Below, piece after piece: positions 14,922 through 30,000 of a stretch of 53,826 nt of DNA. The notes below the pieces were generated by a model, which saw nothing but the letters and a program-made list of their open reading frames with translations, made no database searches and was not told the origin of the DNA. The stretch covers positions 1 through 53,826 of the forward strand of contig JACSRE010000231.1 of NCBI GenBank assembly GCA_014879945.1. The letters run 5' to 3'. Made by a program: the position numbers and the translations under genes. This stretch comes from Myxococcus sp. Its GTDB lineage: Bacteria > Myxococcota > Myxococcia > Myxococcales > Myxococcaceae. Position 1 is the first letter of the stretch, and every line of letters starts with the position of its first letter.

Positions 14922-15395
14922 CTACCGGCATCCCTGCCACTGCATCATTCCCCGCCCCGCCATCATCCCCATCATCGATTGGGTGCGGGTCATGAGGTGC
15001 GCTGTGTGGCCCATCATCACCTGGCGGTGACGCGCCATCTCCGCGCCGAGGTCTGCTGCGCCGCAGCCGTTCGCGAAGTGCGCGTCGAGTTCGCTCTGCA
15101 TGTCGCGTGTACCTCCCGCCATGTCCGCTTGGTCGCCGTGCCCCATTCCGCTCATGCAAGTGTCGAGACCAGGGCACATGCCACTCATCGAGGCGAGCAT
15201 TCGGTTTGCCGATTCGCGGTACGACTGCATCTCCGACGAACACGACGCGGGCGCAACCGACGCAGCGGCGCTGGTGTGACGCTCGACGAGAGCCTGGAGC
15301 TCCTGCGACGTCGCGCCCACCGAAGAGGCGTCGTCAGTGGTTGAAGGACCGCAAGCGGCGAGTGAAAGAAGACTGACAAGGGCAATTCGCAGCAT
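14922..15395 (-). CDS. Met-rich lipoprotein of unknown function
   Basis: A 157-residue secreted lipoprotein. The signal ends SLAAC (Cys15). After a Ser/Ala-rich linker there are paired Cys (ASCSSEMQSY, MCPGLDTCMSGM, NGCGAADL) and many Met and His. The C-terminus is very Met-rich (MMGHTAHLMTRTQSMMGMM), like periplasmic Cu(I)/Ag(I)-binding proteins. The ATG at 15395 follows a GAGG; an upstream-extended frame lacks a sensible signal. It diverges from the ECF sigma gene, so the two may share a regulatory region. Metal buffering is inferred from composition. Confidence 0.65.
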   Translation of the reverse strand: MLRIALVSLLSLAACGPSTTDDASSVGATSQELQALVERHTSAAASVAPASCSSEMQSYRESANRMLASMSGMCPGLDTCMSGMGHGDQADMAGGTRDMQSELDAHFANGCGAADLGAEMARHRQVMMGHTAHLMTRTQSMMGMMAGRGMMQWQGCR

Positions 15396-15491: not shown

Positions 15492-15520
15492 TGTCACGCT
15501 TCGCCCTTCTCGCGCCTATT
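15492..15520 (+). promoter_or_regulatory. ECF-type promoter 1 (autoregulatory, before the sigma gene)
   Basis: TGTCACG (15492-15498), a 16-bp spacer, and CCTATT (15515-15520). The spacer ends TCGCG and T follows the -10, as at promoter 4. The sigma start codon lies 12 nt after the -10, so the leader would be only about 6 nt. Its presence before the sigma gene suggests autoregulation. Confidence 0.78.
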
Positions 15521-15532
15521 TCATCAGGTGCC

Positions 15533-16057
15533 ATGCCCGAGTTCTCAGACCTCGATCAACTGCTGAAGGCCCTCTCCGAGGGCAACCGCGAGGTCTTTAC
15601 TCGGGTCTTCGAGTTGCTGTGGGACCCAATCCTCAGGCTCTGTGTGCGCCTCATGGGCGAGCAGGAGGGCGTGGACGCGGCGCAGACCTCGATGCTGAGC
15701 ATCCTCGAGCGCGCCAACGAGTACGACTGGCACCGCCCCGCCTTGCCCTGGGCGCTCGCCATCGCCACATGGCAGTGCCGAACGCAGCTCAAGAAGACTG
15801 TGCGCCTTCGCGAGACGACCGACGAGAGGCCGAACGAGAGCGACGGCGGCGCCGCGGCGGAGGAGCAAGAGCAGCGGGTCCTCCTCAATGCGGCGATGGA
15901 GGCCATGGGCACGCTCTCCGAAGCCGACCAGCAGACACTCATCGCCACCTACTGGGAGACAGCGAGTTCCGTCTCCGGCGCAACCCTGAGGAAACGACGT
16001 GCCCGCGCGCTCGGCCGTCTTCGCGACGCCTTCCGGAGGCTCTATGGACTCGATTGA
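15533..16057 (+). CDS. ECF-type RNA polymerase sigma factor
   Basis: A 174-residue group IV sigma factor. Region 2 covers about residues 20-85 (FELLWDPILRLCVRLMG, DAAQTSMLSILERA, LPWALAIATWQCRTQLKK). An acidic linker (about 88-110) leads to a compact region 4 (about 118-172: GTLSEADQQTLIATYW, then basic LRKRRARALGRLRDAFRRL). It lacks the C-terminal Cys-rich domain of the myxobacterial copper sigma CorE, so metal sensing must lie elsewhere. The gene for a six-helix Cys protein overlaps its 3' end. The recognised promoter is inferred to be the shared TGTCACG-N16-CCTATT motif. Confidence 0.82.
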   Translation: MPEFSDLDQLLKALSEGNREVFTRVFELLWDPILRLCVRLMGEQEGVDAAQTSMLSILERANEYDWHRPALPWALAIATWQCRTQLKKTVRLRETTDERPNESDGGAAAEEQEQRVLLNAAMEAMGTLSEADQQTLIATYWETASSVSGATLRKRRARALGRLRDAFRRLYGLD

Positions 16058-16589
16058 CCTCGCCAGACTCTCGCGCCAAGCACGTGCTCGCTACGAGCGC
16101 GCGCGTTTGGGGCTGAGCTTCGCGGGCGCGGCCCCGGTGCTGCTCGTCGTCGCCGCCGCTGCGGTGCTGGGAAAGCGGCCCAGTTCGGTTGCCCTCTTCG
16201 GCGGGCTCCTCTTCGTGAGCGGCGTCGTCTTGCTCTGGCGCGGCCGCGACCTCCGGCTCGCGCTCTGGCCCGGCGTGCTCTCAGGACTCATTCCGCTCGT
16301 CTTCGCGCTCGTCGCGAACTACGGGCATGGGTGTTCAGGTGACCACTGCTCCTCGTTGTGCGTTCCCGCCTGCACAGTTGGTGGGGTGACTGCCGGCGTC
16401 GTCGTCTCGGTGATTGCGACGCGCCTGAAGCTCGGCTGGGGTTTCTGGCTCTCTGCTTCAGCCGTCTCCATGCTCACGGGGGCCATGGGCTGTGCCTGCG
16501 TCGGATACTCCGGCGTACTTGCCTTGGTAGGCGGCTTTGCAGTGGGGCTTGCCCCGCAGTTCGTGCGCAGAGTTTTCGCCTCGCATTGA
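16044..16589 (+). CDS. six-helix membrane protein with periplasmic Cys motif, candidate anti-sigma/sensor
   Basis: A 181-residue inner-membrane protein that overlaps the sigma gene by 14 bp, with GGAGG just upstream. A short cytoplasmic N-terminus (RQARARYERARL) precedes six predicted helices (about 22-42, 47-65, 73-92, 108-125, 131-150, 153-173). The loop after TM3 holds Cys97, Cys102, Cys106 and Cys110 with His95 and His101 in GHGCSGDHCSSLCVPAC. Cys150 and Cys152 follow TM5. With the N-terminus inside, both Cys sites face the periplasm. The layout recalls NrsF/DUF1109 membrane anti-sigmas, but I see no clear sequence match. The sensor role is inferred. Confidence 0.68.
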   Translation: MDSIDLARLSRQARARYERARLGLSFAGAAPVLLVVAAAAVLGKRPSSVALFGGLLFVSGVVLLWRGRDLRLALWPGVLSGLIPLVFALVANYGHGCSGDHCSSLCVPACTVGGVTAGVVVSVIATRLKLGWGFWLSASAVSMLTGAMGCACVGYSGVLALVGGFAVGLAPQFVRRVFASH

Positions 16590-16591
16590 CC

Positions 16592-16620
16592 TGTCACGCC
16601 GAGCGCCCCTCGCGCCTACT
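16592..16620 (+). promoter_or_regulatory. ECF-type promoter 2 (before the 12-residue peptide ORF)
   Basis: TGTCACG (16592-16598), a 16-bp spacer and CCTACT (16615-16620), one mismatch from the other -10 sites. Unlike sites 3 and 4 it has a real leader of about 36 nt with a strong ribosome-binding site. It lies 2 bp after the membrane-protein stop. Confidence 0.72.
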
Positions 16621-16662
16621 CAGAGTCCGGGAGTTCACTCGGACGAGGGAGGTGAGAGGCAC

Positions 16663-16701
16663 ATGAAGAAGAAGATCAAGGTTCGCCACTGCGGCATCTG
16701 A
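16663..16701 (+). CDS. 12-residue peptide ORF, MKKKIKVRHCGI
   Basis: A tiny ORF with a strong ribosome-binding site (GAGGGAGGTGAGAGG ending 3 bp before the ATG), placed between ECF promoter 2 and an 11-bp perfect hairpin. The peptide is very basic and carries a single His-Cys pair two residues from the C-terminus. It could be a leader peptide for attenuation of the oxidoreductase gene, a small metal-binding peptide, or a substrate of that oxidoreductase. The sequence supports translation but not the role. It is shorter than gene callers report. Confidence 0.45.
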   Translation: MKKKIKVRHCGI

Positions 16702-16716
16702 GCGCGTCGCCGCTCT

Positions 16717-16760
16717 CCGGCGACCGGTTTCCGGTCGCCGGTCTTTCCTTCGTCCCTTTT
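16717..16760 (+). terminator. perfect 11-bp hairpin with T-rich tail (terminator or attenuator)
   Basis: The stem is CCGGCGACCGG (16717-16727) with its exact complement at 16731-16741 and a TTT loop, followed by a T-rich stretch to 16760 that includes a run of five T. It begins 15 bp after the 12-residue ORF and ends just before the ribosome-binding site of the oxidoreductase. It could terminate a ~125-nt RNA or attenuate read-through. Confidence 0.65.
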
Positions 16761-16771
16761 TGGAGCCTTCG

Positions 16772-18112
16772 ATGCTCGACGTTCTCGTTGTCGGAAGTGG
16801 CCTGTGCGGAACCCTCGCAGCCAAGCACCTCGAGGGAAAGGGGCGCTCGGTCCTGGTGCTCGAAGGAGGGCCCGGACTCCCACCAGCTCTGCCTGGCGAC
16901 GTCGTCGGATTCCAGCGCGCGGTGGCGCCGATTGCACGAAGCGTGGACCAAGCCTGGGCCTTTCGTGCGCCCAAGGGGTACGAGTGGCATCGGGTTCGCG
17001 CGAGAGGAGGGCGGACGCTCCTCTGGGGTGGCTGGATGGAGCGCCCTCCGAAGGACTACTTCGATGCCCGCAGGAAAACGGGGGCAGCCTGGCCTCACAC
17101 GCTCGCTGTCGAGCTCGACGGGTGGATTCGCCGAGCAGAGAAAGCCCTCACCGTTCGAACTGGCCGACGTGGGCCCCTGCATCGCAAGCTGGCAGCGCTC
17201 GGCCACAAGGCAGCGACGAAGCGCGAGTCGGTCCTCATCGGACAACGGAGAATGCTCACCGCTGCCGACGTATCCCTCAGGAGCGAAGTTCGTTGCGACA
17301 GCCCGGTGGTGCGCATCGAGGCGACCTCGGAAGGGCTCATCGCCATCACCGCCTCGGGCGAAGCCCTCAGTGCCAGGCGCGTGGTGCTGGCTGCGTCACC
17401 CATCGAGACAGCGCGCATCCTCGAGTTCAGCCTCCCGGAGAAGCAGCGCCGCCGGCGCATCGACGTGTTCGACCACTTGATTGCCGGCGCCATCGCCATC
17501 GCGCCTCGAGAGCGAGCCGGAGTGCACCCACTCGACGCAGCGGAGCCCTCGGCCGTGATGCACCCTCCGCCGACCTCAAGAGCGCGCTTCACCACCGAAG
17601 TCCGCGGGCCCACGCCCCTCGAGAGCCTGGACGCCGAAGACCTCAAGAACCTCGGTTTCACCGTCGAAGAAGCCGCAAAGCACTCTTTTTACGTCGTCTT
17701 CGCGATGGGTGAGACTGACGCGGCGACCCCACGACAGGTTGAGTTCGACGCACGCTCACTCGATGGTCTCGGCCGGCCTTCGCCTCGCTTCGTCGCTCGC
17801 GCCCACACCCGAACCGAAGCGTCGCTCGGAAAGCAGATGAACCGACAGGTGCTCGGTCTCGCGCGACAGTTGGCCTCGAGCCGCGAACGCGCGTTCCTCA
17901 TCTACGACGCGCTCGATTTCTCGTCGGGCGGCCATGAAGTGGGCACCTGCCTCGACCGCATCGATGAAAACGGACATGTGACGGGCCTTCCCGGTGTGTA
18001 CGTCGCCGACGGTGCGGGGGTTCCCGCAGCGACTGACCGGCACCCGAGCCTCACGCTGGCCGCCAACGCGCTGCGTGTCGCAGACGCGCTGGCGCGGAGC
18101 ATGAAGAGCTGA
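16772..18112 (+). CDS. GMC-family-like FAD oxidoreductase
   Basis: A 446-residue flavoprotein. The N-terminal dinucleotide-binding motif is DVLVVGSGLCGTLAAKHLEG (residues 3-22), ending in a Glu for FAD ribose. The C-terminal GMC-type segment has HEVGTCL and GVYVADGAGVPAATDRHPSL (about 388-430), matching the family's flavin-closing region. The expected His/Asn catalytic pair is not clear. The ATG at 16772 has GGAG 6 bp upstream. It lies downstream of the peptide ORF and hairpin and upstream of the copper operon. The substrate is unknown; no cognate cytochrome is adjacent within the same operon. Confidence 0.75.
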   Translation: MLDVLVVGSGLCGTLAAKHLEGKGRSVLVLEGGPGLPPALPGDVVGFQRAVAPIARSVDQAWAFRAPKGYEWHRVRARGGRTLLWGGWMERPPKDYFDARRKTGAAWPHTLAVELDGWIRRAEKALTVRTGRRGPLHRKLAALGHKAATKRESVLIGQRRMLTAADVSLRSEVRCDSPVVRIEATSEGLIAITASGEALSARRVVLAASPIETARILEFSLPEKQRRRRIDVFDHLIAGAIAIAPRERAGVHPLDAAEPSAVMHPPPTSRARFTTEVRGPTPLESLDAEDLKNLGFTVEEAAKHSFYVVFAMGETDAATPRQVEFDARSLDGLGRPSPRFVARAHTRTEASLGKQMNRQVLGLARQLASSRERAFLIYDALDFSSGGHEVGTCLDRIDENGHVTGLPGVYVADGAGVPAATDRHPSLTLAANALRVADALARSMKS

Positions 18113-18132
18113 CTCCCCAAAGGGTCGGCCCA

Positions 18133-18161
18133 TGTCACGCCGAGCGGCTCATCGGCCTATT
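18133..18161 (+). promoter_or_regulatory. ECF-type promoter 3 (copper operon)
   Basis: TGTCACG (18133-18139), a 16-bp spacer and CCTATT (18156-18161). The first codon at 18168 lies exactly where transcription should start, so the mRNA is probably leaderless. This promoter would drive the ~15-kb run of overlapping genes from 18168 to 33434. Confidence 0.78.
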
Positions 18162-18167
18162 TGAGAC

Positions 18168-18713
18168 ATGGAGCTGCTCCCAGAACATCTCCTGCTGGTT
18201 CGTGCGCGGCGCGCCTATGAGTGGGGGCGCCTCCGTCGGGCGCTCCTCGGCGCGCTTCCGCTGGCGCTGCTGATTGGGCCCGCGTTGGCCCTCACCCCGC
18301 GAGTCGTGCCCACCATCGGCTTGGGCGCGACGTTGGTGCTGGCTGCCGTTGGGCTCTTGTGGTTCGGGCACGGGTTCCCTCGCGCGGCGCTCCTCGGGGT
18401 CGCGGCCGGCGCGCTCCCGCTCGGGCTGGTGCTCTGCTCGGCGCGGCTCGGTCACGCCTGCGCTGGCTCGATGTGCATGGAGTTCTGCTTCGGCACGAGC
18501 GCGCTCGGGGGCGCCGCAGCAGGAGCAGTCATCGGCTCGTGGGCCTTCGAGAAGCGCGTCTCAGCCCTCCTCCTGCTCACCGCTTCCGCCTTCGGGCTTC
18601 TCACTGGGGCGATGGGAAGCACCTGCGTCGGACTTCTCGGCGTCGTCGCCCTGGCCGTTGGATTCGGTCTCGGCGTCGCCGTGCAGTGGATTCGAAGCGA
18701 GGTCACTTCGTGA
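18168..18713 (+). CDS. six-helix membrane protein with Cys motif, paralogue of the sigma-linked protein
   Basis: A 181-residue membrane protein, the same length as the protein at 16044. It shares an N-terminal RARRAYEWGRL segment, the loop GHACAGSMCMEFC (Cys98, Cys103, Cys107) with identical Cys spacing, and LTGAMGSTCVG (Cys153). There is an extra Cys90 in TM3. It is the first gene of the copper operon, directly at an ECF promoter. As the sigma-linked copy is the likely sensor, this one may give feedback or act as a metal-binding transporter. That is inference. The stop overlaps the next start in a GTGA. Confidence 0.65.
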   Translation: MELLPEHLLLVRARRAYEWGRLRRALLGALPLALLIGPALALTPRVVPTIGLGATLVLAAVGLLWFGHGFPRAALLGVAAGALPLGLVLCSARLGHACAGSMCMEFCFGTSALGGAAAGAVIGSWAFEKRVSALLLLTASAFGLLTGAMGSTCVGLLGVVALAVGFGLGVAVQWIRSEVTS

Positions 18714-19330
18714 GCGCGCCAGGCGCAGGGCAGAGACTTCTCGCGGGCGTCGGCCTTCTCGCTCTGGTGGGAGCAGGCGTCCTCGCTGCCGCAGCAGCAC
18801 TCATGGTTCGCGGCGGCTTCTCGACACGGAGCCAACCGTCGACGCTGGAGGAGACTCTGGCGCGCACGATGCGCGGGCTGGCGATGACGCGAACTCGTTC
18901 GCTGAAGCCCGCGTCGACCGCGCCGCCGGACCTGAAAGCGGCGCGCGCTCATTGGGCTTCGCACTGCGCCATCTGCCACGGCGTCGGCGGCGCCGGCGAC
19001 ACCGACATCGGTCGAAACTTGTATCCCCCGGCACCAGACATGCGCGGCCAGACGACCCAACGTCTGAGCGACGGAGAACTCTACGCCGCAATCAACAACG
19101 GCATTCGTCTCACGGGCATGCCTGCGTGGGGTGCGCCGGGCGACGACGACGTGGAGACCTGGGGGCTCGTCGCCCTCATCCGCACGCTCCCCACCCTCGA
19201 CGAAGACGCTCGTGCAGACATTGAACAAAACCTCCCGAAGACGCCGCAGCAGCAGGCAGAAGACCTGGAGGAAGACGACTTCCTCCGCGGCGGCAGCCCT
19301 ACCCCTCACAAACCGGAGATGCACCCATGA
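18710..19330 (+). CDS. membrane-anchored c-type cytochrome
   Basis: A 206-residue protein with an N-terminal membrane anchor (about 9-32), a linker, and one class I cytochrome c domain (about 73-165). The heme attachment motif is CAICHG (Cys86, Cys89, His90) and the likely axial ligand is Met137 in GMPAWG. The tail is acidic and Gln-rich. It sits between a Cys membrane protein and a cupredoxin, so it may pass electrons to or from a copper protein during Cu(I) oxidation. The start is a GTG overlapping the upstream stop; the downstream overlap is ATGA. Confidence 0.85.
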   Translation: MSAPGAGQRLLAGVGLLALVGAGVLAAAAALMVRGGFSTRSQPSTLEETLARTMRGLAMTRTRSLKPASTAPPDLKAARAHWASHCAICHGVGGAGDTDIGRNLYPPAPDMRGQTTQRLSDGELYAAINNGIRLTGMPAWGAPGDDDVETWGLVALIRTLPTLDEDARADIEQNLPKTPQQQAEDLEEDDFLRGGSPTPHKPEMHP

Positions 19331-19881
19331 CCCGCGCTTCCTTCCTCGCCGTCCTCTTCATCTCGACTGCCGCGCTGGCGCACGGTGGCGGCCACCTCAA
19401 GGGCGTCGTCACCCAACTGACCGACACGCAGCTCACCGTCACCGCGGACGACAAGGACAAGGTCGTCATCAACCTCGACAAGAACAGTCGCTTCGAAAAC
19501 GACGGCAAACCCTCGACGGCCAACGCGCTGCCCGTCGGCTCTCGCGTCGTGGTTCATCTGAAGCCTGGGACCAAGCCGCAGCTTGCAGCGTTGGTGAAGT
19601 TCGTCGCGGCCGCGGCGACGCGAATCGACGTCGCGGTGACGAGCGATGGCTTCGTCGTCGCCAATGCGCCCACGCTGAAGGCGGGGCAACCCGTGACGTT
19701 GGTTGTCACGAGGTCAGTCGAGAAGACCTGCGCGACCGACATCGTCCTGAAGGAGTTCGGTCTCTCCCAACCCCTTCCGCTGAACAAGCCGGTTGAAGTC
19801 AGCTTTACGCCGAAGAAGGCAGGCGTCGTTCGGTTCGCCTGCGCGATGGACATGATCGCCGGCAGCCTCAAGGTGGAGTAG
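19327..19881 (+). CDS. periplasmic cupredoxin-domain protein
   Basis: A 184-residue exported protein. The signal peptide (about 1-18) leaves a mature N-terminus with AHGGGH. Residues 20-85 form a small beta domain like those called DUF5666 (GVVTQLTDTQLTVTA, LPVGSRVVVHL). The C-terminal cupredoxin domain (about 105-184) has KTCATDIVLKEFG and VRFACAMDM, where the Cys and Met residues resemble the copper site of the EfeO/cupredoxin-1 type. It probably binds periplasmic copper and delivers it to the CusCBA-type pump encoded next. Confidence 0.75.
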   Translation: MTRASFLAVLFISTAALAHGGGHLKGVVTQLTDTQLTVTADDKDKVVINLDKNSRFENDGKPSTANALPVGSRVVVHLKPGTKPQLAALVKFVAAAATRIDVAVTSDGFVVANAPTLKAGQPVTLVVTRSVEKTCATDIVLKEFGLSQPLPLNKPVEVSFTPKKAGVVRFACAMDMIAGSLKVE

Positions 19882-19883
19882 CT

Positions 19884-21269
19884 GTGCGCGGCCTCCCACC
19901 AATCGTCGGCCTCACCGTCTTGCTCCTGGCGCGCGTTTCTGACGCCCAGGGCGCCGACGGGATGCTGTCGGCCCTTGTGGACGACGCCATTGAGGCCCGG
20001 CCCGAACTCGCCCAGGCACGAGCCGAGGTACGTGCCGCTCAAGAGCGCGTCCCGCAGGCAGAGTCATGGCCTGACCCGATGCTGCAGGTGGGGGTGCAGA
20101 ACGACAGCTTCAACAAATGGCAGGTCGGCACGATGGAGACGAGCTGGCTGCTCTTCATGGCGTCGCAGACCATCCCGTTTCCGGGCAAGCCGGGCTTGCG
20201 AGGCGACGTCGCGAACGTCGAGGTGACCATCCGACGACTCGCGGTCGAGCGCGTGCGGCTCACCACCATCGCGGACGTGCGCCGCAACTACGTCGCGCTT
20301 CAGTTGGCGCGTGCTCGCCTTGACCTCCTCTCGAGGCTCTCTTCACTCCTGACGCTCGCTGTCGAGGTCGCGCAGTCTCGCTACGAGTCAGGTGAAGGCC
20401 CCCAGTCAGACATCCTCCGAGCTCGCCTTGAGCTTGGCCGCCTCGAGCAGCAGCGCGTCGTACTTCAGTCCGATGAGCAGTTGCAGCTCGAAGCACTCAA
20501 CCGACTTCGCGGCCACCCGCTCGACGAGAAGGTCGCCGCTCGACCGCTCGCACAGCTCACCTTCCCGCCGCCCCCCGACGAGGCCGAAGCAGCGCGTCAA
20601 ATCCTCGAGGCGAGCCCGGAGTATCTGGCGGCGCGCGAAGGGGTGAATGGCGCTCAACGCGTGCGTGAGCTCAGCCGGCGGCAGTACCTGCCGGATCTCA
20701 CCGTCGGGGCGGGTGTGATGGTCCGAGGCTCGCTTGACCCGATGTGGACGGTGACGCTCGGGCTCCCTCTCCCCGTCTTCGCGGGCACGAAGCAATCGCG
20801 GGCGGTTTCCGAGGCCGACGCAACCATCGACGCGACCGGCAGGAGCGTGGAGACAGTGGAGCAGTTGCTGCGCCTGCGAACCGCCCAACGGCTGTCGTAC
20901 TGGCGTGCCCTCGGAAAGATATGGCGCTCGTACCAGGACAGCCTGCTCGCCAACGCTGAGGCCACAGCCACCGCGACGCTGACGCAGTACCGCATCGGGA
21001 AGGTGCCCTTCGCCTCCGTCCTCGAGGCGACCTCAGCCACGATCGCCCTCGTCGATGCGTCCTACGCCGTGCTCGTTGATGCCTGGAAGCTCGCCATCGC
21101 GCAAGACGAGTCCTCCCTCGCCGAAGTCAGCGTGAATGGCGGAGGCATGGGCAGCGCCGTCCCGGGTGCAGGTGGTGGAGGCGGCATGTCCGGTGTTCGG
21201 TCGGCTTCGCCTTCGAACATGACCAGCGGAGCGGCTGGCAACTCGGCCAGCGGCTCGACAGGAATGTGA
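19884..21269 (+). CDS. CusC/TolC-like outer-membrane channel
   Basis: A 461-residue outer-membrane efflux protein, GTG start 2 bp after the cupredoxin stop. It has a signal peptide (about 1-21), and two helical-hairpin repeats that include ESWPDPMLQVGVQNDSF, SQTIPFPGKPGLRGD and VTLGLPLPVFAGTKQ. The C-terminal ~45 residues are Gly/Met/Ser-rich (GGGMGSAVPGAGGGGGMSG), an unusual tail that may bind Cu(I)/Ag(I) or be a disordered periplasmic extension. No lipobox is visible. It is the first member of the copper efflux set. Confidence 0.86.
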   Translation: MRGLPPIVGLTVLLLARVSDAQGADGMLSALVDDAIEARPELAQARAEVRAAQERVPQAESWPDPMLQVGVQNDSFNKWQVGTMETSWLLFMASQTIPFPGKPGLRGDVANVEVTIRRLAVERVRLTTIADVRRNYVALQLARARLDLLSRLSSLLTLAVEVAQSRYESGEGPQSDILRARLELGRLEQQRVVLQSDEQLQLEALNRLRGHPLDEKVAARPLAQLTFPPPPDEAEAARQILEASPEYLAAREGVNGAQRVRELSRRQYLPDLTVGAGVMVRGSLDPMWTVTLGLPLPVFAGTKQSRAVSEADATIDATGRSVETVEQLLRLRTAQRLSYWRALGKIWRSYQDSLLANAEATATATLTQYRIGKVPFASVLEATSATIALVDASYAVLVDAWKLAIAQDESSLAEVSVNGGGMGSAVPGAGGGGGMSGVRSASPSNMTSGAAGNSASGSTGM

Positions 21270-21270
21270 A

Positions 21271-22689
21271 ATGAGCTCCGAAACGAAGAAGAGCCGCAGC
21301 TGGCTTCGCACCATTCTCGTCATCGCCTTGACCGCCGCCATCGCTGGCCCGGTGGGAGCGCTCATCGCGACTTCGATGAAGGGGGCGGTGGCCGCGCCGA
21401 AACAGGCCGCGAACTACCACTGCCCAATGCACCCGAGCATCGTGAGCGACCACCCCGGCGAGTGCCCCATCTGCGGCATGAAGCTGGTGAAGCTCGAGGG
21501 GCCCGCGGCCGCTCCAACGACATCCGAGCGGAAGATTCTCTTTTACCGCTCACCGATGGACCCCCGGCAAACCTCACCAGGCCCGACGAAGGACTCGATG
21601 GGGATGGACTACCTCCCCGTCTACGAGGAGGACGCGGCGGGACACAGCGAGGTGGATGGCCTGGCCGAGGTCGAGCTCGACCCGACCCGGCAACAACTCA
21701 TCGGGCTTCGCACGGCGGTCATCGAGCGCGGGTCAGTGGGCGGCAATTTCCGAACGGTGGGAAGGGTCAGTGTCGACGAGACGAGGGTTCGCCGCGTCAA
21801 CGTCAAGGTGCCCGGCTACGTCGAGCGCGTACTCGTCGACTTCGTGGGGAAGCCTGTCCGCAAGGGCCAGCCGCTCTTCGCGCTCTACAGCCCCGAAGTG
21901 CTCGCAGCCGAGAACGAGTTTCTCACGGCCCTGCGGGCGCAGTCGGCGAGCCTCGTGTCCGCCGCGCGCAGGAAGTTGGAGCTCTGGGACGTGCCCGAAG
22001 CCGAGCTGCAACGCCTCGAGAAGGAGGGCACGGCATCTCGAGTCATCACCTTCGTCTCCCCAGTCAGTGGCGTGGTGACGCGCAAGGAGCTCGTCGAAGG
22101 CACTCGCCTCGAGGTGGGCGCGATGCCGTACGACGTCGTCGACCTTTCGACCCTCTGGGTGCTCGCCGACGTCTACGAGACAGAGCTTCGCTTCGTCAGC
22201 CCCGGCGTCCCCGCGCAACTCACCCTCAACGCCTTCCCGGGGCGCCTCTTCACAGGGAAGGTCTTGTTCGTCGACCCGCTCCTCGACCCGAAGACGCGGA
22301 CCGCTCGCGTACGCTTGAGCTTCGCCAACACGGCCGGAGAGCTGAAGCCAGAGATGTTCGGGGAGGTCGTCGTCGAGCGGCCAGCCCGCGATGTCCTTCG
22401 CGTGCCGTCTGACGCGCTGATTCGCAGCGGCGCGGAAGACGTCGTTTTTGTCGCGCGTGGCCAGGGCCGGTTCGAGCCGCGTCGGGTAACGCTTGGTGAG
22501 GTGGGTCGCGACTTCACCGAGGTCGTCGACGGACTGAATGTCGGCGACGCGGTCGTCACGCGCGCCAACTTCCTCATCGACTCCGAGTCGAGACTCCGTG
22601 CCTCCCTCGCGCGCCTGAGCACGCCCACAAGCCCGAAGGCACCGTCGGCTGACGCTTCGATGCCCGCAGGCCACGAGATGACTCAATGA
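21271..22689 (+). CDS. cusB: CusB-like periplasmic adaptor with two heavy-metal-binding motifs
   Basis: A 472-residue membrane fusion protein. One N-terminal helix (about 12-36) is followed by a heavy-metal-binding domain YHCPMHPSIVSDHPGECP (from residue 49) ending CGM, and a second CusB-type motif at about 92-120 (YRSPMDP, DSMGMDYLPVYEE). Then come the lipoyl, hairpin, beta-barrel and membrane-proximal domains (ALYSPEVLAAENEFL, LWVLADVYETELRF). Both metal motifs are typical of Cu(I)/Ag(I) adaptors. The stop overlaps the pump start in an ATGA. Confidence 0.9.
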   Translation: MSSETKKSRSWLRTILVIALTAAIAGPVGALIATSMKGAVAAPKQAANYHCPMHPSIVSDHPGECPICGMKLVKLEGPAAAPTTSERKILFYRSPMDPRQTSPGPTKDSMGMDYLPVYEEDAAGHSEVDGLAEVELDPTRQQLIGLRTAVIERGSVGGNFRTVGRVSVDETRVRRVNVKVPGYVERVLVDFVGKPVRKGQPLFALYSPEVLAAENEFLTALRAQSASLVSAARRKLELWDVPEAELQRLEKEGTASRVITFVSPVSGVVTRKELVEGTRLEVGAMPYDVVDLSTLWVLADVYETELRFVSPGVPAQLTLNAFPGRLFTGKVLFVDPLLDPKTRTARVRLSFANTAGELKPEMFGEVVVERPARDVLRVPSDALIRSGAEDVVFVARGQGRFEPRRVTLGEVGRDFTEVVDGLNVGDAVVTRANFLIDSESRLRASLARLSTPTSPKAPSADASMPAGHEMTQ

Positions 22690-25600
22690 TTCGCGCCATC
22701 ATCCGCTTCTCTGCGGAGCACCGGTACCTCGTCATCGCGACGTCCATCGTGGCGCTCGCGTTCTCCTGGTACTCGATGAAGACCATCCCCCTCGATGCTC
22801 TGCCCGACCTCTCGGACACACAGGTCATCGTCTATTCGAAGTGGGACCGCAGCCCCGACATCATCGAAGACCAGGTGACGTACCCCATCGTCACCTCGCT
22901 CCTGGGCGCACCCAACGTGAAGGCGATACGTGGCTTCTCCGACTTCGGGTTCAGCTTTGTCTACGTCATCTTCGAAGACGGCACCGACCCGTACTGGGCT
23001 CGGACTCGGGTGCTCGAGTACCTGTCGAAGATTCAGCCACAGCTCCCAAGCGGGGTGCGTACCGAGCTCGGCCCGGATGCGACGAGCGTCGGCTGGGTGT
23101 TTCAGTATGCGCTCGTCGACCGGACCGGAACGCACTCGTCGGACGAGCTGCGCAGCTACCAGGACTGGTTTCTCCGGTACTCGATTCAGTCCGTACCGGG
23201 TGTGTCTGAGGTCGCCACCGTGGGTGGGCAGGTGCGGCAGTACCAGGTCAACGTCAACCCCAACGCGCTGGCGGGCTATGGGCTGAGCCTCGAGTCCGTC
23301 ATCGCGGCGGTGCGCGCCGGGAACAATGATGTCGGTGGTCGCCTCGTCGAGCTTGCTGGCCGCGAGTACATGGTGCGCGGGCGTGGCTACGTGAAGCAGG
23401 TCGAGGACCTCGAGCAGCTCGTCCTGAAGAGCGAAGGTGGCACCCCCGTCACGGTGAAGGACGTGGCGACCGTGACGCTCGGCCCCGAGATGCGCCGTGG
23501 CATCGCTGACCTCGACGGTGAGGGCGACGTCGTCGGCGGAATCGTCGTGATGCGGCAGGGCGAGAACGCCCTCAACGTCATCACGCGCGTCAAGCAGCGC
23601 CTCGAGGAATTGAGGCCCTCGATGCCCGCAGGCGTGGAGGTCGTGACGACTTATGACCGCTCCGAGCTCATCTCGGCGGCCATCGAGACGGTGAAGGACA
23701 AGCTCATCGAGGAAATCATCGTCGTCTCCATCATCATCTTGCTGTTCCTCTGGCACTTCCCGTCGTCCATCGTCCCCATCATCACCATCCCGGTGTCGGT
23801 GGCGCTGGCCTTCATCCCGATGAAGCTCATGGGGCTCAACGCCAACCTCATGTCGCTCGCCGGCATCGCCATCTCCATTGGTGTGCTGGTCGACGGCGCC
23901 ATCGTCGAGGTGGAGAACGCCTACAACCGCATCCACCACTGGATACAGGACGGCAAGAAGGGGGACTTCCACCAGGTCCGTCTCGAGGCGCTGATGGAGG
24001 TCGGGCCGGGCGTCTTCTTCTCGCTCCTCGTCATCGCGGTCGCCTTCATGCCGGTCTTCACCCTGGTCGACCAGGAGGGCCGGCTCTTCCGCCCGCTCGC
24101 CTTCTCCAAGAACCTGGCGATGGCCATCGCCGCGCTGCTTGCCATCACGCTCGACCCGGCGATGCGCATGATGTTCGCCAGAATCGACCCCTTCACCTTC
24201 AAGCCGCGCTGGCTTGCCAGCATCGCGACGACGCTGCTGGTGGGGCGATATCGCGCTGAAGAAGCGCACCCCGTGAGCCGGCTCCTGCACCGCCTGTATG
24301 AGGGGCCCTGCCGCTTCGTGCTTCGCCACCCGAAGGCCACCGTTCTCGCAGCGGCACTCCTCGTCTCGACGACGGTGCCGCTGTACCTGGGACTCGGCTC
24401 TGAGTTCATGCCCCCCCTTCGCGAGGGGACATTGCTCTTCATGCCTTCAGCGGTGCAGCCCGGAATGTCCGTCGCGGAGGCCCAGCAAGTCCTCCAAACG
24501 CAAGACAAGCTCCTGCGCACCGTGCCTGAGGTCGAGCGCGTCTTCGGCAAGGCCGGCCGCGCGAACACCTCGACCGACCCCGCCCCTTTCACGATGATGG
24601 AGACCACCATCATCCTGAAGCCTGAGCGCGAGTGGAGAGAGAAGCCACGCTGGTACTCGTCATGGGCGCCAGAGTGGCTCAAGCGCCCGCTCCGTCCCTT
24701 CTGGCGCGACCGCATCACGGAGGCCGAGCTGGAAGACGAGCTCAACGAGAAGCTGCGCCTCCCTGGCCTCTCGAACGCCTGGACGATGCCCATCAAAGGG
24801 CGCCTCGACATGCTGTCAACCGGCATCCGCACACCGGTCGGCATCAAGATTATGGGGGCCGACCTCGCCACCATCGAGCGCATCGGCCTCGAGACGGAGG
24901 CGGCGGTCTCGAAGGTGCCGGGCACCCGGAGCGCCTACGCCGAGCGCGTGGCGGGCGGGTACTTTCTCGACTTCGAGCTCAAGCGCGACCAATTGGCGCG
25001 GTACGGCCTCTCGGTCGACGACGCGAACATGATGGTGATGAGCGCGGTCGGCGGTGACGTGCAGAGCGTCACCGTCGAGGGGCGCGAGCGCTACGGCATC
25101 AACGTTCGGTACGCCCGCGACTACCGCGAGGACGTCACGAGCCTGAAGCGCGTGCTCGTTCCGTTGCCCGGCGGCCGCGGCCAGATTCCATTTGAGGCCA
25201 TAGCGGAGGTGAAGCTGGCCACCGGGCCCTCGATGATTCGCGACGAGAACGGCCTGCTGGCTGGCTACGTGTACGTCGACTTCGACACATCGAAGGTGGA
25301 CATCGGCGGCTACGTCGACGAGGCCAAGAAGGCGGTCGCCAATCGAGTGTCGCTGCCTGCCGGCTATTCGCTGAGCTGGAGTGGGCAATACGAGAACATG
25401 CTGCGCGTGAAGGAGCGGCTGACGCTGATTCTGCCCATCACGCTGCTGCTCATCTTCGGCCTGCTGTACATGAATACGAAGTCGGCCTTCAAAGCAGCCG
25501 TGGTGATGCTCGCAGTGCCCTTCTCGGCAGTGGGCGCGCTGCTGTTCCTGACGATGCTCGGGTACAACATGTCCATCGCTGTCTGGGTTGGCCTCATCGC

Positions 25601-25970
25601 GCTCATGGGCCTCGACGCCGAGACGGGAGTGTTCATGCTTCTCTTCCTCGACCTCTCGGTCGAGGACTTCCGAAGGCGAGGTGCCCTCAACAGTCGCGGC
25701 GACCTCGTGGAAGCCATCGTGCATGGCGCCGTGAAGCGCGTTCGTCCCAAGGCGATGACGGTGTGCGCAGCGATGCTGGGGCTCCTGCCCATCATGTGGT
25801 CCACAGGCACGGGGGCCGACCTCATGAAGCGCATCGCGGCGCCCATGGTGGGTGGGCTGGTGACGAGCTTCATGCTCGAGCTTCTGGTGTACCCGGCCAT
25901 CTACCTTCTGTGGATTCAGCGGCAACTGCCCGAGCCTTCTGTGGCGCCCGGAGAGGCGGTGATGGTGTGA
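22686..25970 (+). CDS. cusA: CusA-like copper/silver RND efflux pump 1
   Basis: A 1094-residue inner-membrane pump, slightly longer than the ~1045 of E. coli CusA. It has the CusA-typical NAWTMPIKGRLDMLSTGI segment. Met in LLFMPSA, FTMMETT and DMLSTGI should correspond to the periplasmic Met triad of CusA. The TM4 signature is AISIGVLVDGAIVEVEN, intermediate between the CusA and CzcA types. The extra length includes a segment WREKPRWYSSWAPEW in the second periplasmic loop. It is coupled to CusB upstream and overlaps the next adaptor by a GTGA. Confidence 0.92.
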   Translation: MIRAIIRFSAEHRYLVIATSIVALAFSWYSMKTIPLDALPDLSDTQVIVYSKWDRSPDIIEDQVTYPIVTSLLGAPNVKAIRGFSDFGFSFVYVIFEDGTDPYWARTRVLEYLSKIQPQLPSGVRTELGPDATSVGWVFQYALVDRTGTHSSDELRSYQDWFLRYSIQSVPGVSEVATVGGQVRQYQVNVNPNALAGYGLSLESVIAAVRAGNNDVGGRLVELAGREYMVRGRGYVKQVEDLEQLVLKSEGGTPVTVKDVATVTLGPEMRRGIADLDGEGDVVGGIVVMRQGENALNVITRVKQRLEELRPSMPAGVEVVTTYDRSELISAAIETVKDKLIEEIIVVSIIILLFLWHFPSSIVPIITIPVSVALAFIPMKLMGLNANLMSLAGIAISIGVLVDGAIVEVENAYNRIHHWIQDGKKGDFHQVRLEALMEVGPGVFFSLLVIAVAFMPVFTLVDQEGRLFRPLAFSKNLAMAIAALLAITLDPAMRMMFARIDPFTFKPRWLASIATTLLVGRYRAEEAHPVSRLLHRLYEGPCRFVLRHPKATVLAAALLVSTTVPLYLGLGSEFMPPLREGTLLFMPSAVQPGMSVAEAQQVLQTQDKLLRTVPEVERVFGKAGRANTSTDPAPFTMMETTIILKPEREWREKPRWYSSWAPEWLKRPLRPFWRDRITEAELEDELNEKLRLPGLSNAWTMPIKGRLDMLSTGIRTPVGIKIMGADLATIERIGLETEAAVSKVPGTRSAYAERVAGGYFLDFELKRDQLARYGLSVDDANMMVMSAVGGDVQSVTVEGRERYGINVRYARDYREDVTSLKRVLVPLPGGRGQIPFEAIAEVKLATGPSMIRDENGLLAGYVYVDFDTSKVDIGGYVDEAKKAVANRVSLPAGYSLSWSGQYENMLRVKERLTLILPITLLLIFGLLYMNTKSAFKAAVVMLAVPFSAVGALLFLTMLGYNMSIAVWVGLIALMGLDAETGVFMLLFLDLSVEDFRRRGALNSRGDLVEAIVHGAVKRVRPKAMTVCAAMLGLLPIMWSTGTGADLMKRIAAPMVGGLVTSFMLELLVYPAIYLLWIQRQLPEPSVAPGEAVMV

Positions 25971-27091
25971 TCACAGGGAGACTCTGGAACTCGGCTAACG
26001 CGGTTGGCATCGCAGTGATGCTGGCCTCTGGGACATCGGGCGCCCAGGACGAGCCCTCCCATCATCAGCACCAACCTGACGCATCCGTCCAGTTCGGTTC
26101 GCCCAAGGGGTACGCGCCAATTGAGGTGCGAGATGGCTCGGTCGCAGGATTCTCGCTCGAGGTCGCCACTGTCCAGACCCGCTCGTTGAAGCGGACAATT
26201 CGCACCTTCGGCGTGGTCACATTTGACGAGACCAGGACCTCGCACGTTCACCCCAAAGTGCGCGGAACGCTCGAGTCAGTGTCGGCCAACTTCATTGGCA
26301 AGACGGTGAAGCAGGGGGAACACCTGGCTGAGATCTACAGCCCGACCGTCTATGCCGCACAGTTGGAGCTGGTCGCCGCCCTCAAACAAGCCCGCGGCGC
26401 TGGAGACCCTCTCGTCGAGAGTGCCCGAAGGCGCTTGCAGCTCTGGGACGTACCCACAGCCCAGATTGAGCGAACCGTCCAGGGCCAGAAGGCTTCGCGG
26501 ACCTTCACCCTCGTCGCACCGCGCTCCGGCACGGTGCTCGCGCGTCAGGCAATCAACGGCATGTATGTGAGCCCCGAGACGGAGCTGCTGGTGGTCTCCG
26601 ACCTCTCGGTGGTGTGGGTGCTGGTGGATCTCTACGAGACTGACGTTCCGTTCGTACGACCGGGCACGCCGCTGACGCTGACCATCGAAGGCGTGCCGAA
26701 CGGCCGCGAGGGCCAGGTCGCCTTTCTTCCGCCGACCATCGACGAGAGCACTCGAACCCTCAAGGCCCGAGTGGTGGTCGCGAACAATGAGGGCAACCTC
26801 CGGCCGGGGGCCTTCGTTCAGGCGACCCTGCAGGCTGACCTGGGCGATGCGCTCAGTGTTCCGACCCAGGCAGTGCTTCGCGCCGGCACCCGGGACCTCG
26901 TCTTCGTCGTCAGCGGTGAGCACGTTGAGCCTCGCGAGGTTCGGCTTGGCGCGTCCAGCGGGGAGTTCGTCCAGATTCTCTCAGGGCTGAAGGAAGGCGA
27001 GGCAGTCGCAACGAAGGCCCAGTTCCTGCTCGACTCTGAGAGCCGATTGCGAGCGACCAGCGGTCCAGGAGGCGGCCATGTCGGACACTGA
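25967..27091 (+). CDS. second CusB-like periplasmic adaptor
   Basis: A 374-residue adaptor with a GTG start overlapping the pump stop. A signal-like segment (about 8-26) is followed by a His-rich patch (SHHQHQPD, about 31-38) and the usual adaptor domains (VHPKVRGTLESVSANFIGKT, EIYSPTVYAAQLELVAAL, VVWVLVDLYETDVPF). Unlike the CusB at 21271 it lacks the CPMHP metal-binding domain. It overlaps the second CusA gene by 14 bp, so it is probably the dedicated adaptor for that pump. No second outer-membrane channel is present, so the channel may be shared. Confidence 0.88.
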   Translation: MITGRLWNSANAVGIAVMLASGTSGAQDEPSHHQHQPDASVQFGSPKGYAPIEVRDGSVAGFSLEVATVQTRSLKRTIRTFGVVTFDETRTSHVHPKVRGTLESVSANFIGKTVKQGEHLAEIYSPTVYAAQLELVAALKQARGAGDPLVESARRRLQLWDVPTAQIERTVQGQKASRTFTLVAPRSGTVLARQAINGMYVSPETELLVVSDLSVVWVLVDLYETDVPFVRPGTPLTLTIEGVPNGREGQVAFLPPTIDESTRTLKARVVVANNEGNLRPGAFVQATLQADLGDALSVPTQAVLRAGTRDLVFVVSGEHVEPREVRLGASSGEFVQILSGLKEGEAVATKAQFLLDSESRLRATSGPGGGHVGH

Positions 27092-30000
27092 GCCGCCAAC
27101 CGGCCTCATCGCTCGCGTCATCGACGTCTCGGGCAAACACCGCTGGGTGGTGGTGCTCGCATCTGTGGCGTTTGCGAGTGCCGGCGCGTGGTCAGCTCTG
27201 CACACCCCGCTCGACGCCCTACCGGATCTGTCGGACACGCAGGTCGTCATCGCTACCGAGTGGATGGGCAGAAACCCGACGCTGATCGAAGATCAGGTCA
27301 CGTACCCAATCGTCACGTCGTTCCTCGGTGCGCCCAACGTGAAGACCGTACGGGGCTTTACGATGTTCGGGATGTCGTTCGTCTACGTCATCTTCAAGGA
27401 CGGCACGGACCTCTACTGGGCGCGCTCGCGGGTCGTGGAGTACCTGTCGAAGGTTCGAGCCCGGCTGCCTCCTGGCGTCAACCCACAGATTGGGCCTGAC
27501 GCCACCAGCGTCGGGTGGGTGTACCAGTACGCGCTCGTCGACCCCACGGGCAAACACTCCCTCCAGGAGCTGCGTACCTTGCAGGACTGGACGGTGCGCT
27601 ATGCGCTGCAGTCCGTCGAGGGTGTCTCGGAGGTGGCGGGCGTCGGCGGCTTCGAAAAGCAGTACCAGGTGCAGGTAGATCCTGACCGCCTCAAGGCGTT
27701 CGGTGTGTCGGTGGGCGAGGTCGCAGCAGCGATTCGGAGCGCGAACGACGAAGTGGGCGGTCGGGTCATCGAGATGACCGAGCACGAGTACTCGGTTCGC
27801 GGCCGCGGCTACGTTCGGTCTGCGGAGGACCTCGAGCTCGCGGTGGTAGTGACGCGGGCCGACGGCATTCCTGTTCGCGTGCGCGACGTCGCCGCCGTCG
27901 CGATCGGCGGAAACATACGCCGAGGTGTGGCCGAGCTCGATGGAATGGGAGAGGTCGTGGCGGGCATCGTGGTGATGCGCTCCGGGGAGAACGCCCTCGA
28001 CGTGGCCCAGCGGGTCAGGACCAGAATCGACGAGTTGAGACCGACGCTGCCCGAGGGCGTGAAGTTGGTCACCGTCTACGACCGGAGCACGCTGATACTG
28101 GACTCGGTCCAGACGCTGACTGAGAACGTCACGCAAATCGTTCTCATCATCTTGCTGGTGATTGCTGTCTTCCTCTTCCATTTCCGCTCAGCGCTGGTGA
28201 ACGTCATCACGCTTGGCGTCGCGGTTCTCGGCTCGTTCATCGCATTCTACCTGCTGAAGATGACCATCAACATCATGTCGCTGGCGGGGGTGATTCTCGC
28301 CCTCGGCGACATGGTCGATTCGGGTGTGGTGCTGGTCGAGAACGCGCACAAGAAGATTGAAGCCGCTGAAGCCGACAAGAAGAGCATTGACCGAGGGGCG
28401 CTGATTCTCAGCTCAGCGAGGGAGTTGGGGCCGTCGATGTTCGGAGCGTTGCTCGTCCTCACGGTGGCGTTCTTGCCAGTCTTCGTACTCGAAGGAGAAG
28501 AAGGCCGGCTCTTCCGTCCGCTCGCGCTGGCGAAGACCGCGTCGATGGCAGTCGCTGCGGTGCTCTCCGTGACGCTGGTGCCAGCGCTGATGGTGCTGCT
28601 GCTGAAGGGCAAGATTCGGCCCGAAGAGACGAACCCTGTCGCACGCCTGTGCCGGAACGCATACCGCCCCGTCCTTCGGTTCTGCCTGGTTCACCGCTGG
28701 CCGATGCTCGTTGGTTCCGTGGTGGTGACGCTGCTTACCGCGCTCCCGTTCACCGGGCTGGGTTCCGAGTTCATGCCGCCTTTGTACGAGGGCGACCTGC
28801 TCTTCATGCCAATCACAGTCCCCTCGATTCCAGTCGAGCAGGCGCGCACCCTCCTGCGCTGGCAGGACGCGCAGATTCGTAGCGTGCCTGAAGTCGACCA
28901 GGTGTTCGGGAAAGCGGGCCGCGCTGAAAGCGCGTTGGACCCCGCGCCATTGTCGATGTTCGAGACGGTGGTCAGGCTGAAACCCCGGACTCAATGGCGG
29001 AAGGGGATGACCATCGAGAGCATCACCGCGGAGCTCGGCGCAAGGGTCACCAGTCCTGGCATTCAGGGTTCTTGGACGATGCCCATCAAGGCGCGCATCG
29101 ACATGCTGTCCACGGGCATTCGCACGCCGATTGGCGTCAAGGTGTTCGGCAAGGACCTCGCCACCATCTCTGAAGTGAATGACCAGCTCGAGCGCGTCCT
29201 GAGGACCGTTCCTGGTACCCGCAGCGTCTACGCAGAGCGAGAGCTGGGCGGGTTCTTCCTCGACATCACGCCCAACCGGGAGGCCATCTCCCGATACGGA
29301 GTGACGGTACGCGACGTTCTCGACGTCGTGGAGAGCGTCATCGGCGGGATGGACATCGCCACCACCTACGAGGGACGCGAGCGGTACCGGGTCAACGTTC
29401 GCTACCCGCGGGACCTGCGCGACGACGTCGACTCGGTCGGGCGAATTCTCGTGCCTGTTCAGGCGACTCCGGTGCGAAGGGCGGTCGCAGCGAGAGGGGC
29501 CGCGCGTCCTGAAGACCCGGACCCCATGAGCGGAGGCGCTGGCATGGGTGGCGTCGTCGGGGCGCAGGAAGAACAAGAGCAAATGGGAGGCGGCCCGATG
29601 TCAGCCAGTCCGCCTCCACTGGCGGGCAAACGTGCCTGGGTTCCATTATCGAGCCTGGCTCACATCGAGACCGTGATGGGCCCGCCGATGATCAAGAGCG
29701 AGATGGGCTCGTTGACCGGTTGGGTCTACGTGGACCTCGAGGGCCGAGACGTGGGTGGCTACGTCGACGACGCGAAGGCCGCGGTCGCCCGGGAGGTGAA
29801 GCTGCCGGCTGGCTACTCGCTGAAATGGACCGGGCAGTACGAGCTGTTGGAGCGCGTGCGGGCGCGGCTCGCCTTCGTCCTGCCGCTCACCCTCGCGCTG
29901 GTCTTCCTCATTCTCTATCTCAACTTTCGAGGTGTGATTCAGACGCTGCTGGTGATGAGCGGAGTGCCGTTCGCTGCCGTGGGCGCGGTCTGGACGCTCT

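Follow-up and report, generated by a model that had tools for sequence, protein, structure and literature searches.

A six-helix membrane protein family of the Myxococcota that likely supplies the anti-sigma factor and a feedback copy for an ECF sigma factor at a copper-linked locus

A stretch of 53,826 nucleotides of a Myxococcus sp. (assembly GCA_014879945.1, contig JACSRE010000231.1, positions 1 to 53,826), here referred to as the window, carries an extracytoplasmic function (ECF) sigma factor gene that overlaps the gene of a six-helix membrane protein, here called 6TM-A. A second protein of this kind, 6TM-B, heads a downstream operon for a cytochrome c, a cupredoxin-like protein, and a CusCBA efflux system. 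Judged by sequence comparison, the two are true paralogues within a family that is real, is found in the Myxococcota, is undescribed, and is absent from Pfam and NCBIfam. Because of a fixed 14-nt gene overlap, co-evolution, and a shared autoregulatory promoter motif, 6TM-A is likely the cognate anti-sigma factor of the adjoining sigma, which it is presumed to bind. Taken as one whole, a model in which this pair senses its signal through cysteines at the periplasmic face and 6TM-B provides feedback seems to us quite probable. It builds on computed properties, namely family membership, gene pairing, co-inheritance, the promoter motif, helix number, topology, and the conservation and loss of cysteines.

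The first-pass annotation of the window had picked out 6TM-A and 6TM-B as paralogous six-helix proteins with shared cysteine motifs, and this proved correct: each is exactly 181 amino acids long, and they align end to end with 36% identity (E = 9e-15). Both contain the motifs GHxC-x4-C-x3-C and LTGAMGxxCVG, which read GHGCSGDHCSSLC and LTGAMGCACVG in 6TM-A and GHACAGSMCMEFC and LTGAMGSTCVG in 6TM-B. An AlphaFold2 model of 6TM-A, built with 48 family sequences (predicted local distance difference test [pLDDT], 90.3; predicted template modeling score [pTM], 0.85), has six helices (residues 6-42, 46-66, 68-95, 103-127, 132-153, and 155-179), with ~20 residues preceding the first transmembrane (TM) segment. 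Of the two cysteine clusters, the first occupies the TM3-TM4 loop and the start of TM4, and the second is found at the end of TM5. The mean number of lysines plus arginines per segment is 3.8 for the N terminus, 1.9 for loop 2, 2.4 for loop 4, and 2.0 for the C terminus on the inner side and 1.0, 0.2, and 0.0 for loops 1, 3, and 5 on the outer side. This charge distribution supports an N-in topology with both cysteine sites outside, in agreement with their earlier placement in the periplasm. Family columns conserved at 90% or more are R14, Y17, E18, R21, C97, C102, C106, and G154, with Y17 invariant; the first four make up an RxxYExxR motif in the N-terminal cytoplasmic helix. Position 150 is a cysteine in all 43 members that are not 6TM-B copies and position 110 in 41 of these 43, while the metal-associated clades have C152 and many others have leucine or isoleucine in its place. 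C102, C106, and C110, spaced every fourth residue along TM4, can form one face, and TM5 ends, with C150 and C152, on that same membrane side.

A single-sequence scan for related loci had returned one locus; wider sampling consisted of profile searches of Myxococcota genomes. Members were found in 47 of 195 genomes with a five-sequence profile and in 52 of 193 with a 48-sequence profile. They include a third copy encoded on another contig of this genome (C129, locus L005), not seen by the first-pass annotation, which overlaps its own sigma gene by 14 nt and lies 5' of CopA and CusCBA genes. Comparison of both proteins and all 48 members with the Pfam and NCBIfam profiles, transporter families included, gave only isolated weak matches to single members. 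A sequence-profile search of the PDB found no match, and the 6TM-A model had no Foldseek match to PDB folds at E ≤ 0.001 and no convincing match in the PDB and viral fold libraries. The best structural match was a designed protein (VIA Z 7.7, over 96 residues); AcrB-type TM domains, at Z 5-6, were rejected as background for helical bundles. When 6TM-A and an NrsF-like protein were searched against plasmids, neither gave a match. A distant branch of the family (L061, L065, L072, L075, and L083) precedes a gene for a PD40/TolB-like beta-propeller protein rather than metal genes. A metal role is also suggested for the module of Myxococcus-like genomes, since the genes after it encode a cysteine-rich protein that by eye is YHS/TRASH-like (L057:7963-8391, + strand), an OEP-like protein, and an RND (resistance-nodulation-division) pump.

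Nearly every copy that we fetched lies directly 3' of a sigma gene. Spacing was measured at 43 loci, 42 of which show an overlap with an ECF sigma gene: the genes overlap by exactly 14 nt in 37, overlap by another length (4 to 29 nt) in 5, and are separated by a 134-nt gap in 1. Overlapping pairs occur across lineages that are widely diverged in the tree and have quite different downstream genes. Only five copies, all of them 6TM-B and each within a copper cluster, lack their own sigma gene; an A copy with its sigma is present in the same cluster for four of them (the window, L049, L001, and L055), and for the fifth (L054) the contig starts within the cluster. Sigma identities and 6TM identities are correlated (r = 0.915 over 903 pairs), a value reached in 0 of 2,000 permutations. 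The L005 pair shows identities of 0.77/0.78 to the L050 pair of another genus and of 58%, for both proteins, to the window pair. Because it is nearer to the other-genus pairs in both proteins, sigma and 6TM move as one module. From their arrangement, the sigma and 6TM-A genes, which are adjacent, are probably co-transcribed.

These regularities bear on whether 6TM-A could instead be a metal transporter or redox protein that is co-expressed with the sigma. Its Cys/His-rich membrane site and its efflux-gene neighbors would suit such a role, as would the fusion of one B copy (L001) to an efflux gene. However, the fixed overlap is with the sigma gene and not with efflux genes, despite the varied downstream genes, and no transporter family was matched. 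In addition, conservation beyond the cysteine sites is best in the short N-terminal RxxYExxR segment, which is what a site of partner binding should show. We consider a transporter or redox protein improbable.

The proposed regulon of the sigma is marked by a promoter motif, GTCACGC-N13-SGCCTA, that lies 5' of three gene groups in the window (Table 1). In the 7.72-Mb genome, this motif has five exact matches, and all five are in two sigma/6TM/copper modules; the two outside the window precede the second sigma gene and the second operon for an outer-membrane efflux protein (OEP) and CusBA, respectively. The reversed control gave 0 matches. A hand estimate that assumes 68% G+C puts the chance expectation at ~1 match per genome, in agreement with the 0 to 3 scattered matches found in genomes that lack the module, while genomes that have it show matches at the module, with one exception weighed below. 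The motif is also present at related modules, and a one-base-shorter form lies 5' of many distant sigma genes. From these sequence patterns, we predict that the sigma/6TM-A operon is under an autoregulatory promoter common to the regulon. In the window, the ATG of 6TM-B follows the -10 element by 8 nt, and its placement is similar in L001, L049, and L054, suggesting that the 6TM-B mRNA is leaderless. Another predicted member is a 12-codon open reading frame (ORF) of the form MKKK[IL]K[VI]RHCG[IL], which is found in six genomes from two genera, all six of which have the sigma/6TM-A module. This tiny ORF has a strong ribosome site and a sigma promoter copy to itself, and it is mostly followed by a hairpin and then a gene for a GMC (glucose-methanol-choline) oxidoreductase, although at L053 no GMC gene adjoins it on that strand. 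The tiny peptide that it encodes may bind metal or be modified, or it may act as a leader.

The five 6TM-B copies form one clade (support, 99/98), and all five have serine at positions 110 and 150 and an intact RxxYExxR. Since the N-terminal motif is kept, C110 and C150 are absent, and the gene is in the predicted sigma regulon, 6TM-B is likely a feedback anti-sigma copy, a brake that would be blind to the signal. The first-pass annotation had suggested that one paralogue may be the anti-sigma factor and the other a feedback or effector copy; the anti-sigma and feedback roles have gained genomic support and are likely, on the basis of the overlap in 37 of 43 loci, co-evolution, the motif, and the place of 6TM-B in the predicted regulon. 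In a Myxococcales metagenome-assembled genome (L001:5597-7435, + strand), 6TM-B is apparently fused in frame to an OEP, in a protein of 612 amino acids. A competing reading is that 6TM-B is an effector, for instance a periplasmic-face metal-binding or assembly factor for the cytochrome c or CusCBA, that has lost sigma binding. The position of 6TM-B at the head of the pump operon, the in-frame OEP fusion noted for L001/L048, and the lack of a sigma gene of its own would fit; the RxxYExxR retained in every B copy would not be needed by an effector. We regard an effector role as possible but somewhat doubtful.

The first-pass annotation was right to remark that the layout of these proteins is like that of NrsF (PF06532, formerly DUF1109), although the sequence does not obviously match. 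Common to both are six TM segments, a short cytoplasmic N terminus, cysteines placed in the periplasm at two sites, and an adjoining ECF sigma gene, and a heavy-metal and copper-linked regulon is a further likeness. In Caulobacter crescentus, C131 and C181 on the periplasmic side of NrsF are needed to restrain SigF, and their replacement frees SigF (PMC3511200); the SigF regulon is induced by copper and needed for copper tolerance (PMC8224329). Sequence and profile similarity to NrsF is nevertheless undetectable. Detectable homology was rejected because hhalign gave Prob values of 0.3-2.4% for all 6TM subgroups against NrsF-like proteins, compared with 99.7-100% for subgroup against subgroup; PF06532 matched none of the 48 members and, in 40 relatives' genomes, identified other loci only, never 6TM loci. 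The likeness could still be accounted for if the family had branched from NrsF/DUF1109 (or from CarR) and diverged so far that fold and mechanism were kept but the sequence signal was gone. The model of a myxobacterial NrsF-like protein (L037), whose gene is also beside an ECF sigma gene, has six TM segments, with Cys168 at the end of TM5 and Cys120 eight residues past the start of TM4. These places are similar to those of the (near-)invariant C110, also eight residues into TM4, and of C150, the two cysteines lost in 6TM-B, and C150 falls on C168 when the profiles are forced into a global alignment. In contrast, where this alignment is unreliable, 6TM proteins have clusters of as many as four cysteines at the TM4 start and of one or two at the TM5 end; there are four where NrsF has one, and the full set is a C-x4-C-x3-C-x3-C cluster plus a C-x-C rather than two cysteines. 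The two invariant histidines of NrsF-like proteins are absent, and the predicted regulon here consists of CusCBA/CopA and not of bufferin-type genes. On this evidence, a diverged branch of NrsF or CarR is a minority possibility.

Other regulators provide partial parallels. CarR, which we compared by description only, is also a six-TM anti-sigma factor of a myxobacterial ECF sigma, and in M. xanthus, carQRS responds to both light and copper (PMC9304148, PMC8156234); unlike at that locus, the carQRS order with CarS is not seen at the 6TM locus. CorE and CorE2 are myxobacterial ECF sigma factors that regulate copper genes (PMC3107203). In the literature, the metal dependence of CorE is ascribed to its own C-terminal extension, whereas the 174-amino-acid sigma here lacks an extension of this kind and comes paired with a membrane protein. 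As with class I anti-sigma factors (ASD, or zinc-binding ZAS), the proposed negative regulator is encoded beside its sigma; unlike them, the 48 members have no ASD or zinc-finger Pfam match, and the segment before TM1 is short. The 6TM profile found no further homologue in Myxococcus-like genomes, and a search for CarQ/CarR via sigma region-4 matches in one Myxococcus-like genome found only one NrsF-type pair. At L144 and L193, in a Myxococcus-like genome, an NrsF-type protein adjoins a sigma gene and has a ZIP-like metal transporter in convergent or divergent orientation to it.

In the model that we favor, the sigma and 6TM-A genes would be translationally coupled as a sigma/anti-sigma pair. 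6TM-A would reside in the inner membrane and hold the sigma through its basic N-terminal helix (RxxYExxR) in the cytoplasm, and the cysteines of the TM3-TM4 loop, TM4 (C102, C106, and C110), and TM5 (C150 and C152) would constitute one periplasmic-face site. This site may become oxidized or may bind a soft metal, for which Cu(I) is the most likely candidate, and either event would loosen the N terminus and free the sigma. The freed sigma would then drive its own operon, the tiny ORF/GMC transcript, and the 6TM-B/cytochrome c/cupredoxin/CusCBA transcript and, with the paralogue sigma, would probably also drive the second cluster (sigma/6TM, CopA, and CusCBA) elsewhere. 6TM-B made during the response, with the proposed sigma-binding motif kept, would exert negative feedback. 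Sigma binding, the cysteine chemistry, copper as the signal, and the feedback role are the steps that we infer. A bolder combination, in which an anti-sigma family unrelated to NrsF uses the TM4-TM5 cysteine site as a membrane-embedded soft-metal/redox sensor and a cysteine-loss duplicate, controlled by its own sigma, serves as a signal-blind brake in a hard-wired two-tier copper response, is offered tentatively.

Several observations weigh against this model. The mirror-tree correlation between sigma and 6TM partly reflects species descent, and since the B copies are one clade, their loss of cysteines counts as one ancestral event and not five. The module in G150 (L055) has no exact promoter match. 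The sigma of the window scores 17.9 bits against a Pfam cut-off of 24 (region 2 is below threshold), while its orthologues at L005, L050, L061, and other loci exceed the cut-off. Finally, GHxC...C...C is kept in lineages where the next gene encodes a PD40-like protein or nothing metal-related. Because members beside non-copper genes keep the cysteines, the family signal may be broader than copper, and the Cu(I) sensing proposed by the first-pass annotation is no more than plausible. The signal might instead be general thiol oxidation or envelope stress, a view that suits the family-wide cysteines and the response of M. xanthus CarR to both copper and singlet oxygen (PMC9304148). The predicted regulon in the window clade, which comprises CopA, CusCBA, cupredoxin, and cytochrome c, argues for copper, as does the occurrence of C152 in metal-associated clades, and we regard a noncopper signal as possible but somewhat doubtful.

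The genes of the locus are arranged in the order ECF sigma, 6TM-A, 12-codon ORF, GMC oxidoreductase, 6TM-B, cytochrome c, cupredoxin-like protein, OEP, CusB, and CusA (Table 1).

Table 1. Features of the sigma/6TM locus, in window coordinates
Feature	Position	Strand	Basis or remark
Predicted autoregulatory ECF promoter GTCACGC-N13-CGCCTA, 5' of sigma	15493..15518	+	Own-genome pattern search; same motif at related loci
ECF sigma factor, 174 aa	15533..16057	+	Pfam/NCBIfam, alignment
6TM-A, proposed cognate anti-sigma with six membrane helices; C97, C102, C106, C110, C150, C152 at periplasmic face	16044..16589	+	14-nt overlap with sigma
Predicted sigma promoter 5' of tiny ORF and GMC gene	16593..16618	+	Motif search
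Tiny ORF MKKKIKVRHCGI, 12 aa, kept in six genomes	16663..16701	+	Sequence comparison
G+C-rich hairpin between tiny ORF and GMC gene	16717..16741	+	Read from sequence; relatives have hairpins of other sequence in the same place
FAD-dependent GMC-type oxidoreductase, weak MftG-like match	16772..18112	+	Pfam/NCBIfam
Predicted sigma promoter 5' of 6TM-B operon	18134..18159	+	Motif search
6TM-B, paralogue; Ser for C110 and C150; C97/C102/C106/C152 and N-terminal RxxYExxR retained	18168..18713	+	Alignment
Cytochrome c (CBB3-type)	18710..19330	+	Family profile match
Cupredoxin-like protein	19327..19881	+	Family profile match
Outer-membrane efflux protein (OEP, CusC/TolC type)	19884..21269	+	Family profile match
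CusB-type periplasmic adaptor	21271..22689	+	Family profile match
CusA/CzcA-family heavy-metal RND pump	22686..25970	+	TIGR00914, 1040 bits

Right after this set, a second CusB/CzcB-type adaptor and CusA/CzcA-family pump (26063-29507, + strand) are encoded without the sigma motif. A Met/His/Cys-rich putative lipoprotein (14922-15395, - strand) is divergent from the sigma gene; family profiles gave nothing above cut-off for it. In L203, a homologue stands divergent to the tiny ORF and GMC genes, although the sigma gene there is on a separate contig.

To our knowledge, multipass anti-sigma factors that apparently sense through periplasmic cysteines are few, namely NrsF and perhaps CarR. The 6TM family offers ~50 natural variants, a defined sigma partner, and a sharp promoter motif for reporters. 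Its B clade is a natural experiment in which exactly two conserved cysteines were lost and the proposed sigma-binding motif was kept. Collectively, these properties would make it directly testable, with the 6TM family, which cysteines sense the signal and how the sigma is released.

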